Positions 1 to 12,494 of a stretch of DNA of 32,237 bases are shown here, one piece after another. The stretch is from positions 1-32,237 of the forward strand of contig CAJXJF010000013.1 of the NCBI GenBank assembly GCA_913054475.1, written 5' to 3'. Both the position numbers and the translations under genes were made by a program. Source of the DNA: an uncultured Nitratifractor sp. Lineage in GTDB: Bacteria; Campylobacterota; Campylobacteria; Campylobacterales; Sulfurovaceae. The notes under the pieces are model-generated. The model was given only the letters and a program-made list of their open reading frames with translations, had not been told where the DNA came from and made no database searches. Position 1 is the stretch's first letter, and each line of letters begins with the position of its first letter.

Positions 1-126
1 ATTGGGAGATGGAAAGAAGCTACAGGAGGTGATGGAAATTTACGAGGTGCGGCTGGATGTTGCTCGTGAACATTTCTTGACATTATCCTCCCATGTGGTA
101 TTCTGCTGTGTTCCGAGACCTAATCT

Positions 127-2295
127 TTATGAAGATTTAAGTGGCATTGAATGTATGATCTGTATTTGTATATCGGAAGATACTTCCGCTATACCATTTT
201 TTAATTCTATCAGTTTTTCTATTGAAACAGCGTCGTTGAATTCGATTTCTAAATCTTGAACACCCGGAAGCAGATAAGCCTCGTAGTTGGATGGAAATCC
301 GATATTGTCCATTACACTTTTCCAATTTGAATCTAATTGCAATCTGATTTTGAATCTAATTTTTGTATCGGAATCGTTATCGTATAGAGGAGTATTAGCT
401 TTCGGATTTCCTGAATACACCACTATCGGGTGGGTTCTTTGAATATCGATTTCCGATGATTTACTCGATGATGCGTTTGCAAAATGCTTTTCGATCTTCC
501 AGATATCGTCTATAGTAATAGAGTTGAAATATATAAGATAATCCTTCGGGCCAAGCATTTTGTATATCTCTATCTTTATCTTTTCGTGATTAAGTCCTAT
601 GGCCTTTATTTTATTTTCAAGTTTTTCCAATTTATTCGTTATATCATTAGTGTTACAATTATCCTTGAAACCCACGAAGAGCAAAAGATCAAAAACGGCG
701 TTGTCGCTCTCTTCGTGGATGCCCATCTCTTTCCATTTAACAAGAGAATATTTCCTTTCGTAATAGCTGCCATCATCGCTTTGATTATTAGATGAAGATA
801 TCTTATTTTTTATTTCTTCAAGCCCATCTTTCTCTTCTAAACTCATAAAATTATATATTCCAAATACCATTTTTTTGCCATTATTTATCATTTTTGAAAC
901 AAAATCTTTTTCTGCTTTTCGAAGATTTACTTTGTATAGATGCAAAACATAAGGTTTGCAGCACCCATCTTCTGATTTTTCATCTATCAAGTATCTTCTA
1001 AAAAGACTTTTATGAGGTATTTGATCGTTTTTTAGAGATTCGATTTTTTTATTCCAGAAATTGCAGTATGCTTTTGTGATTTTATCTTCCCGACTATCTC
1101 CCCCCTTCTTCTTGGGCAAAATATCGTCATCGGCAAAATCTTCGAGAGACTCTATGATTTTTACAGTTAAATTCGTTATGGCATCGCTAAAATCTCTATA
1201 CTCTCTTCTATATATTTCGGATACTCTATATTTCTCCTCGAGTTTATCAAAAATGGCTCTTATAAGATAAGTGCCGATTGATAGAGGTTCTTCGGAGAGA
1301 TTCTTTTCGGAAACTCTCTTTTCCATCAAATCAAAAAGAACGAAGAGGCGAATCAACGCACTTGCAGCTTTGTCCAGTCCACTAAGGGGGCATAATCCGG
1401 GAGAACGATAATCTGCAATCGGATCGTAAAAAAACTCTTTGGCCAACCCTACGCCCGCTATCTCCTGAAAGGCGGCGTAGAGATAGGACTCTTCGTGCAG
1501 ATTGAAGGCAAAGATGTCCGATGCTATCTCTTCAGCAAGATTTTCCAAATCGGAGATAACACCTCTTGCATATTCATTTTTTGATAAGGTTTCAAATATT
1601 TTTCTCTTTATCTCCATAATCTTCGTTTTGTCGTTTTTCAAGAGCAAATGCCCAATCTCATGTGCTATTATTGGCAGAATACTTACGAGGTCATGATGAT
1701 AGAAGGAGAGTCTGATATAGTTTGCAGAAGTATTCCTGTCCTCTATGGAGCCGCTTTTGATATTAAAAAATTCATCATAAGCCCAATAGAAGAGGATGGT
1801 TGGCGTACTGCCGTCTTCGGACTTTCCAAAATACATCTTGAAGATTTCGTTGTAATAGGTCTGTAAAATATCGGTAAATGCTTTACTGGAAAAACGCTTG
1901 TTTATCTTAGGATAAGGTATATATTGGTTTAGATTGTCTTCCAAAAGCTGAAAAGTCTTGAAGCCGACATTCTCGAGAAATTTTTGAGTACTTTTGGCAA
2001 TTTCCCTGAAGACATCATAATACAAAAGGGCTTCAAATTCATCGACATTTTCCATATGAGAGAAGAGGCTTTCATATTTCTTATTGAATTTTGTTTGATT
2101 GAGCTCTAAATTTTTAAACAGGACTTCACATGTCTTTTTAATATCAAAGCAATCACCTTCTGATTCGTTTATACCAGCCATCTTATAGAAGCTCAATATC
2201 TTCTCTAAATTGTTCATTTCTTTGTTAAGCACTTCTGCCTTTTCATACATGGCCGCTTTGAAAAAAGTCTTTATATCACTTATATTATCAGACAT
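127..2295 (-). CDS. Predicted membrane-partnered zinc metalloprotease (gluzincin-like) with C-terminal ferredoxin-like repeats; unknown function
   Basis: 722-aa ORF; contains IIAHEIGHLLLKND (HExxH) followed about 40 aa later by NLAEEIASDIFAF, a plausible third Zn ligand Glu plus Asp. AT-rich compared with neighbouring genes. No family recognised. Confidence 0.8.
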   Translation of the reverse strand: MSDNISDIKTFFKAAMYEKAEVLNKEMNNLEKILSFYKMAGINESEGDCFDIKKTCEVLFKNLELNQTKFNKKYESLFSHMENVDEFEALLYYDVFREIAKSTQKFLENVGFKTFQLLEDNLNQYIPYPKINKRFSSKAFTDILQTYYNEIFKMYFGKSEDGSTPTILFYWAYDEFFNIKSGSIEDRNTSANYIRLSFYHHDLVSILPIIAHEIGHLLLKNDKTKIMEIKRKIFETLSKNEYARGVISDLENLAEEIASDIFAFNLHEESYLYAAFQEIAGVGLAKEFFYDPIADYRSPGLCPLSGLDKAASALIRLFVLFDLMEKRVSEKNLSEEPLSIGTYLIRAIFDKLEEKYRVSEIYRREYRDFSDAITNLTVKIIESLEDFADDDILPKKKGGDSREDKITKAYCNFWNKKIESLKNDQIPHKSLFRRYLIDEKSEDGCCKPYVLHLYKVNLRKAEKDFVSKMINNGKKMVFGIYNFMSLEEKDGLEEIKNKISSSNNQSDDGSYYERKYSLVKWKEMGIHEESDNAVFDLLLFVGFKDNCNTNDITNKLEKLENKIKAIGLNHEKIKIEIYKMLGPKDYLIYFNSITIDDIWKIEKHFANASSSKSSEIDIQRTHPIVVYSGNPKANTPLYDNDSDTKIRFKIRLQLDSNWKSVMDNIGFPSNYEAYLLPGVQDLEIEFNDAVSIEKLIELKNGIAEVSSDIQIQIIHSMPLKSS

Positions 2296-3331
2296 CTACA
2301 CCTTTCAATTCATATTTGACAGATGTTGCATTGCTCTCAATCGATAAAACTGTTTTCTTAGAAGAGGGGTTGTCCAGTTGCATGACAATCATGGTAATTA
2401 GAATCAATAAAATATTTACAATAGTGCCTATATCCAGAGGAGGAGCAAAATAGTCGATTTTTGAAAAATCCTCTTTTTTCTCTTTTGTTTTATCTTTCGA
2501 ATCATAACTCACATTGATTCTTTTGTGAATCACTCTATAAGATATCTTTTCTAAAAGTTTTCTATCATCTATAAGTATGCTATCTACACCTATTGATTTC
2601 TTGCTTTCCATAATGTTAATCACTCTTTTATACAAAATAGAGTCTTTATGGTATTGCCTGACAAATACAAGAAAGAATATCAAGACTATAGATTCATCTA
2701 TCACGAAATTCCAGACGGTTCCTTGAAGAAAGGTATCGAATAAAGTTCTATGTATAATTATCAGCGGCAATGCCATAACTATAAAAGAGACAAGCGGCCA
2801 TGTGGAGACAAAAAGAGAATTTTCATAAAGAGCGTCGTTTATCGATATGCGGGCAAACAGTGATTCCAATTTATTGTTTATTTTTTCCGAAGGATTCGTA
2901 ACCGTGAATATATAGTATATGGGGGAGAAATTTTTAAGCATTTTGAATCGATCACTCTCGATACTCAGTTCATAGATATGTCTTTCAATCAGATTTTCGA
3001 TCTTGTCACCAAGTATAAGTACATCGTTATAGCGGAAAACCATAGGGCGTAATCCTATAAAATTCGCATAGTATATTTTTGAAATCTCCCAGATACATTT
3101 ATAGTACAAGATGAAAAATAGTAAAAGAGTCAAAGAGATGATTTTGATTGGATCTACCGATGTATTAAAGAACAGAAAGATACAAATGTAAAGCATGGGA
3201 ATTAATGCATCTCTTTTACCGCATCTCTCTTCTTTCAGGGAGCAAATCAGATCTCGAAAATTGGAGTCATTTGTCTTTTTTTTATCTTGTCGCTCCGAAA
3301 AAAACGAGAACAATACCCTATTCTTGTGCAC
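2288..3331 (-). CDS. Multi-pass membrane protein of unknown function, translationally overlapping the metalloprotease gene
   Basis: 347-aa ORF with hydrophobic segments (LYICIFLFF..IISLTLLLFFILYY; SFIVMALPLIII; SIVLIFFLVFV; IGTIVNILLILITMIVM). GTG start preceded by GGGAAG. 8-bp overlap with the next ORF. Confidence 0.75.
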   Translation of the reverse strand: MHKNRVLFSFFSERQDKKKTNDSNFRDLICSLKEERCGKRDALIPMLYICIFLFFNTSVDPIKIISLTLLLFFILYYKCIWEISKIYYANFIGLRPMVFRYNDVLILGDKIENLIERHIYELSIESDRFKMLKNFSPIYYIFTVTNPSEKINNKLESLFARISINDALYENSLFVSTWPLVSFIVMALPLIIIHRTLFDTFLQGTVWNFVIDESIVLIFFLVFVRQYHKDSILYKRVINIMESKKSIGVDSILIDDRKLLEKISYRVIHKRINVSYDSKDKTKEKKEDFSKIDYFAPPLDIGTIVNILLILITMIVMQLDNPSSKKTVLSIESNATSVKYELKGVDV

Positions 3332-3376
3332 AAATCTTCCCTTTTTCGTCCTTGGACAGATTCGATCGTCGAACTA

Positions 3377-3580
3377 TCAAAATTTGAAATTGGTGGAAAT
3401 GGCAAGAGAACGGACTCCGCCGAGTTTGACTTTTTTTCCACCGTCGATACTGCTCATATCGTATTTGTATCGAATTTCACTTTTGCTTATTTCGACAATC
3501 CTCTCATCTCTTTCTCCAGCATTCTGTTCTCTTTTTTTCAGATAAGAATAGATTCTCGATTTTTTTCTTCCCTTTTTCAT
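3377..3580 (-). CDS. Possible small basic protein (67 aa) at the head of the accessory operon
   Basis: ATG lies just 6 nt downstream of a TATAAT box on the minus strand; Lys/Arg-rich product; ends 45 bp before the membrane protein gene. May instead be 5' UTR. Confidence 0.3.
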   Translation of the reverse strand: MKKGRKKSRIYSYLKKREQNAGERDERIVEISKSEIRYKYDMSSIDGGKKVKLGGVRSLAISTNFKF

Positions 3581-3586
3581 AGAAAG

Positions 3587-3592
3587 ATTATA
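3587..3592 (-). promoter_or_regulatory. Predicted -10 element (TATAAT) for the accessory module
   Basis: Minus strand reads gaaatttttaaTATAATctttctATG; T/A-rich upstream with no clear -35, typical of epsilonproteobacterial sigma70 promoters. Confidence 0.5.
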
Positions 3593-3808
3593 TTAAAAAT
3601 TTCCTTAAATTAAGCAAAAGATAAGAGCTTATTGTCCGAATTTTTCTTGTTAGCAGAATCAAAGATTGTAAGGCAAATATGTCGAAAAATCTTCTCGTTT
3701 CATATGGTGCACCCTTGTGTAGATAAGCTCTACCCCAAGGGGACTTTAGCACTCTTGCGATCTTGGCGCGGATGAGCTTATCCGCGACGAGTCTTTGCGC
3801 TTGTGAAA

Positions 3809-12494
<8,686 letters not shown>

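Follow-up and report, generated by a model that had tools for sequence, protein, structure and literature searches.

An undescribed two-gene module pairing a multi-pass membrane protein with a zincin-like protein that carries a RAM-like C-terminal region in Campylobacterota

The left end of a contig from an uncultured Nitratifractor sp., past rpoC, carries two overlapping genes that form a real two-gene module of undescribed families: a multi-pass membrane protein, followed by a 722-aa protein in which a zincin motif is joined to tandem domains resembling the RAM domain of Lrp/AsnC proteins. The window, i.e., the whole stretch of 32,237 nucleotides analyzed here, is one whole contig (C13) of its genome. 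Relatives of the large protein occur in further Campylobacterota, always with a membrane gene directly upstream where the locus is readable, and most of them have lost part of the zinc site. From these sequence patterns we favor, at about an even chance, a membrane-partnered, ligand-sensing zincin module that would be catalytic in the window and a pseudoenzyme in most relatives. The protein family is new, and searches of the literature turned up no earlier account of a comparable pair.

The gene pair and its site next to rpoC

Both genes lie on the minus strand, next after rpoC (Table 1). They overlap by 8 bp as the earlier note had claimed, the ATG of the 722-aa ORF lying 8 nt within the end of the membrane ORF, and a Shine-Dalgarno-like purine-rich stretch is found approximately 6 nt 5' of both starts (GAAAGG and AAGGGAAG). 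A frameshifted N-terminus of the membrane gene was considered and rejected: a three-frame reading of 3331-3600 revealed no hydrophobic extension, and the GTG at 3331 with its Shine-Dalgarno-like sequence therefore stands as the start. No convincing gene was found in 3332-3592, which the earlier note had included in the module (its upper limit being 3592), and the 67-aa ORF at 3377-3580 matches no family to any appreciable degree; scans of 3332-3808 for promoter-like and terminator-like sequences gave nothing above shuffles. On the other side, 126 bp are left between the end of the 722-aa gene and the contig end, the downstream neighbor lying beyond the contig. No gene was identified in positions 1-126, where a repeat may have cut the contig short. 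Flanking repeats of note that could mark the boundaries of a mobile element are absent from positions 1-4000.

Table 1. Features of the module and its surroundings in the window.
Feature	Coordinates	Strand	Description and basis
Zincin/RAM protein	127-2295	minus	722 aa, ATG start (ORF list; relatives in 12 other Campylobacterota genomes)
RAM-like region	145-939	minus	approximately residues 453-717; beta-alpha-beta modules in tandem, resembling Lrp/AsnC RAM (dimeric alpha-beta barrel fold)
EEIASD motif	1516-1533	minus	residues 255-260; E256 as the presumed third ligand of the zinc, with D260 supporting
Zincin motif region	1624-1662	minus	residues 212-224, HEIGHLLLKNDKT, HExxH at 212-216
Upstream partner membrane protein	2288-3331	minus	347 aa, GTG start, multi-pass (ORF list, hydropathy)
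Intergenic stretch between rpoC and module	3332-3808		no convincing gene (ORF list, three-frame reading)
rpoC	3809-8341	minus	

The composition of the pair agrees with its earlier description as AT-rich, its GC content being 34.3% versus 48.4% in the remaining window, and its GC3 37% versus 57-63% in the other window genes. The site itself is one of broken synteny, as had also been pointed out, since close relatives have rpsL and fusA after rpoC and the window's genome has them elsewhere, on another contig (C56, L042) and behind a NAD-synthase-like gene. The order rpoC-rpsL-rpsG-fusA, given in the earlier note, is indeed that of five of the seven same-genus genomes (rpoC, then rpsL and fusA with rpsG between, within the stretch read); in the sixth (G530) the contig end is reached after rpoC, in an apparent rpsG, and in the seventh (G003) unrelated genes follow rpoC. 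In two relatives the pair is placed after fusA, namely in G096 and in G596, where it comes directly after an intact rpoC-rpsL-rpsG-fusA row. A thiG-like gene precedes rpsL in G096.

The zincin core and the RAM-like region of the large protein

The two motifs reported earlier, HEIGH and, approximately 40 residues past it, EEIASD, are present in the 722-aa protein at the positions given in Table 1. Together they make up a gluzincin-type HExxH...ExxxD signature that is found again in a second intact member, that of G596 (L035:8163-11227, HELNH and EEITSD), the two proteins having LAEEI(A/T)SDIFA in common. Across the 12 members compared, H212, E213, and D260 are invariant, and so are the N-terminal residues E18, E26, Q116, R134, S136, W171, P208, and Y271, indicating constraint outside the zinc site. 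The gluzincin motif as a whole is not conserved in these 12: the second zinc histidine (H216) is kept only in the window and G596, the other ten members having R, E, S, Y, or L at this position, and E256 is kept in only three of these ten. Judged by its zinc ligands, the family thus consists mostly of predicted pseudoenzymes, and proteolysis is not its conserved function, because ten members lack the second histidine. The designation "zinc protease" given earlier therefore suits the window protein and one relative, and does not extend to the other ten.

In a tree of the family, the proteins of the window, G596, and G523 form long branches, with weak basal support, outside the main-type relatives, all of which are degenerate at the zinc site. 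The simplest account would be an ancestral zincin whose site the main clade and G523 have lost. For the degenerate zincin-like pair of G279 and G347 we obtained a dN/dS of 0.18, and for the membrane genes values of 0.13-0.37, dS being large or saturated in most pairs; dN lies well below dS, and the catalytically broken versions are therefore still maintained. The family thus has a function for which proteolysis is not required. A zincin fold acting only as a scaffold would fit such a pattern; the module would then sense a ligand and serve the membrane protein (a channel, a transporter, or a protein of lipid handling) as its gate or chaperone, the intact sites being an ancestral remnant with structural zinc. 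The loss of the second histidine in ten of 12 members while H212, E213, and D260 stay, the purifying selection on degenerate members, and the RAM-like region all speak for it, RAM and DABB domains being usually ligand-binding. Yet HExxH and LAEEIxSDIFA, for which a scaffold would have no use, are retained in the proteins of both the window and G596, although these two are only 24% identical overall and their partners are unrelated; we hold this explanation to be rather unlikely.

The earlier note recognized no family for either protein of the module, and searches of Pfam, NCBIfam, PADLOC, and PDB sequences likewise returned no credible match. For the zincin core, PF04298 gave the best Pfam score (E 0.0074, 16.3 bits against a cut-off of 27), and PF06114 (M78/IrrE) scored 12.7 bits against a cut-off of 22 (E 0.11). 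An AlphaFold2 (AF2) model of the 722-aa protein, built from 9 sequences and with a mean pLDDT of 63, reaches 83-90 around the HExxH helix; it places helices at residues 203-218 and 250-280 (pLDDT mostly 76-90), in a modest model for which Foldseek found no match under 1e-3.

The C-terminal third of the protein does not belong to the protease and is probably made up of tandem RAM-like domains. Four weak and concordant signals make this fold likely. Profile searches matched the archaeal Lrp protein PH1519 (E 0.039), and, below cut-off, the LysM RAM in G604 (E 0.0026) and AsnC_trans_reg in G279 (E 0.15); Foldseek retrieved tandem DABB proteins (coproheme decarboxylase, HmoB, 4ae5, and chlorite dismutase) at E 0.005-0.1. 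The modest AF2 model predicts repeated beta-alpha-beta units at about residues 453-717, with strands and helices in the order beta-alpha-beta-beta-alpha-beta. Neither the Pfam AsnC_trans_reg model nor the Lrp-type models of NCBIfam scored above their curated cut-offs.

The membrane partner and the spread of the pair in Campylobacterota

When 299 genomes of the phylum were searched with a single sequence, two relatives of the large protein were retrieved (23-26% identity), and profiles built from these two found more, giving 12 further genomes, all Campylobacterota. The protein is present in 10 of the 176 genomes of the window's own family (the window included) and in two other families of the order, with one copy per genome. 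Two other matches were discarded: that of G486 (L057) to the zincin-core profile lies in the head protein of a Mu-like prophage, where EDIASDEFAY occurs by chance, and a weak match in G029 falls in an unrelated 365-aa ORF. A weak match in G387 contains internal stops. A GTDB-wide scan with the first alignment found members in Campylobacterota only; because it relied on a pattern, distant members would have escaped it, and confinement to this phylum is therefore likely but unproven.

The persistent co-occurrence in varied contexts that had been named as support for a system was observed: a co-oriented multi-pass membrane gene lies upstream in all 12 readable loci (G605, a fragment at a contig edge, was left out), in at least eight different chromosomal contexts. 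Eleven of the 12 have the two genes within about -23 to +20 nt of each other; in the exception, G347, the membrane ORF runs on longer and the overlap reaches up to 161 nt. Beyond approximately 480 residues the large protein of G347 (L013:5697-8556) is no longer homologous, and a fragment farther on lies in a different frame; a frameshift or an assembly error is the likely cause. According to our reading of the translations, the outer neighbors are rpoC in the window, fusA in G096 and G596, msbA/pyrD in G279, the cysS region in G347 (same site as G279), rimP in G523, a lipoprotein and an SGNH hydrolase in G604, a phosphoesterase and xerH in G514, a peptidyl-prolyl isomerase in G614, and cytochrome c in G312. 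HExxH alone does arise by chance in long proteins, and the HEIGH could have been a coincidence and the overlap of two chance neighbors meaningless; this is refuted by the co-occurrence, i.e., a pair kept in 12 of 12 loci and at least eight contexts, with motif columns that align family-wide, and we consider its likelihood negligible.

The membrane partner of the window has five hydrophobic segments by hydropathy (residues 41-59, 62-80, 175-193, 206-224, and 299-317), laid out as a hairpin, a loop of approximately 95 aa, a second hairpin, a loop of approximately 75 aa, and a C-terminal transmembrane segment, and it has no match of weight in Pfam, NCBIfam, PADLOC, or PHROGs. The partners of the window, G596 (291 aa, unrelated in sequence to that of the window), and G523 cannot be aligned in sequence with the main type of partner, whose profile was found in six of the 176 family genomes, always beside the zincin-like gene and never alone. 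Homology of the window partner with the main type gained no support, the hhalign probability being under 1% and near that of reversed-sequence controls. The partners of the window and G596 nevertheless share much of the main-type hydrophobic spacing (a hairpin, approximately 90 residues, a hairpin, and approximately 70 residues, followed in the window partner by the last hydrophobic segment). Sequence similarity being undetectable, a common partner family is suggested by this spacing. The main-type partner of G279 was modeled by AF2 with a pLDDT of 69; the model matches no PDB fold and may represent a new membrane fold. A weak match to DUF4231, below cut-off (E 0.19), was seen for the G523 partner and for none of the other partners scanned.

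FusA of the window's genome is 89% identical to that of G096 and 80% to that of G596, where the large proteins are only 22-24% identical (24% between the window and G596); the large protein of G514 is 47% identical to its relative in G312, a genome of another family, and 28% to that of G096, of its own genus; and all 10 of 10 loci show a higher AT content in the pair than in the flanking DNA. These comparisons fit horizontal spread or diversifying evolution, and the accessory character earlier ascribed to the module is borne out.

Such traits are typical of conflict genes, and a role in defense, which the earlier note had considered, is possible on evolutionary grounds. An anti-phage or abortive infection system, in which the zincin/RAM protein would sense infection and unleash the membrane protein as a pore or disruptor, would account for the presence in 10 of 176 genomes, the very low identity, the AT-richness, the alleles that do not follow the genus, and the partners of unrelated sequence. 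The genomic context does not support it: no defense islands or mobile elements were found, the flanks being housekeeping genes at loci with readable neighbors (rpoC, fusA, msbA, pyrD, xerH, and rimP) with no defense or mobile genes recognized alongside; no relatives turned up when plasmids, phages, and viral contigs were searched; and PADLOC found no credible match to known anti-phage systems in the window or in the relatives, two short matches in one member each, to PDC-M02B (E 0.0032) and Csm6 (E 0.0051), being taken as chance. Membrane effectors of conflict systems usually have two to four transmembrane segments, a number exceeded by partners of 380-460 aa with about seven. We therefore regard an anti-phage function as unlikely.

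Proposed role and comparison with known systems

In the model that we favor, the ligand-sensing zincin module, synthesis of the membrane protein would come first and that of the cytosolic zincin/RAM protein would follow immediately, the translation of the two probably being coupled. A small ligand or an equivalent signal would bind to the tandem RAM-like C-terminus, and the N-terminal zincin-fold domain would change its state in response and act on or with the membrane partner, presumably through physical interaction. The output in the window and G596 would probably be proteolysis, because their HExxH...ExxxD zinc site is complete, and the substrate could be the membrane partner or a protein presented by it. 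In most relatives the same architecture would persist as a pseudoenzyme working by binding.

The closest functional parallel may be IrrE/PprI, which combines a zincin and a sensor domain and cuts the repressor DdrO in response to a signal (PMC7907104, PMC10904395). As in IrrE/PprI (M78) and ImmA-type zincins, a cytosolic gluzincin HExxH is joined to a C-terminal sensor-like domain, and the weak Foldseek matches include a model of a viral IrrE. Unlike M78 proteins, the window protein is much longer, has no significant M78 match (E 0.11) and no recognized HTH; its sensor is RAM-like rather than GAF-like, and a membrane protein takes the place of the repressor as its partner. By analogy, the module may work in the IrrE/PprI manner; membership in that type is not supported, the M78 profile staying below its cut-off. 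A similarity to PF04298 (Zn_peptidase_2, putative neutral zinc metallopeptidases of the YugP type) around HEIGH covers only approximately 50 residues, far below the curated cut-off, and is absent from the other members scanned against Pfam. The C-terminus weakly resembles the RAM of Lrp/AsnC proteins (the Lrp family is reviewed in PMC2995911) and other dimeric alpha-beta barrels (PH1519, LysM, HmoB, and 4ae5) in its beta-alpha-beta-beta-alpha-beta order, but differs in that the domains are in tandem within one chain, fused to a zincin-like part, and lack a recognized HTH. SLATT/DUF4231-like conflict effectors are brought to mind by the weak match of the G523 partner, yet the window partner has five hydrophobic segments and the main-type model has no counterpart among PDB folds.

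Two further readings concern the purpose of the module. The first, which we advance only tentatively, is a new class of conflict or stress system made of two genes: a zincin that senses a ligand through its RAM-like part, often catalytically dead, would switch a co-encoded and rapidly replaced membrane effector, and the system would have spread in Campylobacterota without visible mobile elements. The second is an accessory trait of the envelope-stress or nutrient response, with no link to conflict, that would regulate the membrane protein by proteolysis; chromosomal positions among core genes, a single copy per genome, and the absence of recognized mobility genes are in line with it, but a core stress response should be less rare and less divergent than this pair, which makes this quite improbable.

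If the ligand-sensing zincin module holds true, a sensor-protease architecture combining a zincin with tandem RAM-like domains and tied to a membrane partner would be added to those described. The family would form a natural series, running from complete zinc sites to broken ones while the partner stays in place, in which the role of the protein besides proteolysis could be addressed directly, and Campylobacterota, where many such genes remain nameless, would gain an undescribed accessory module.
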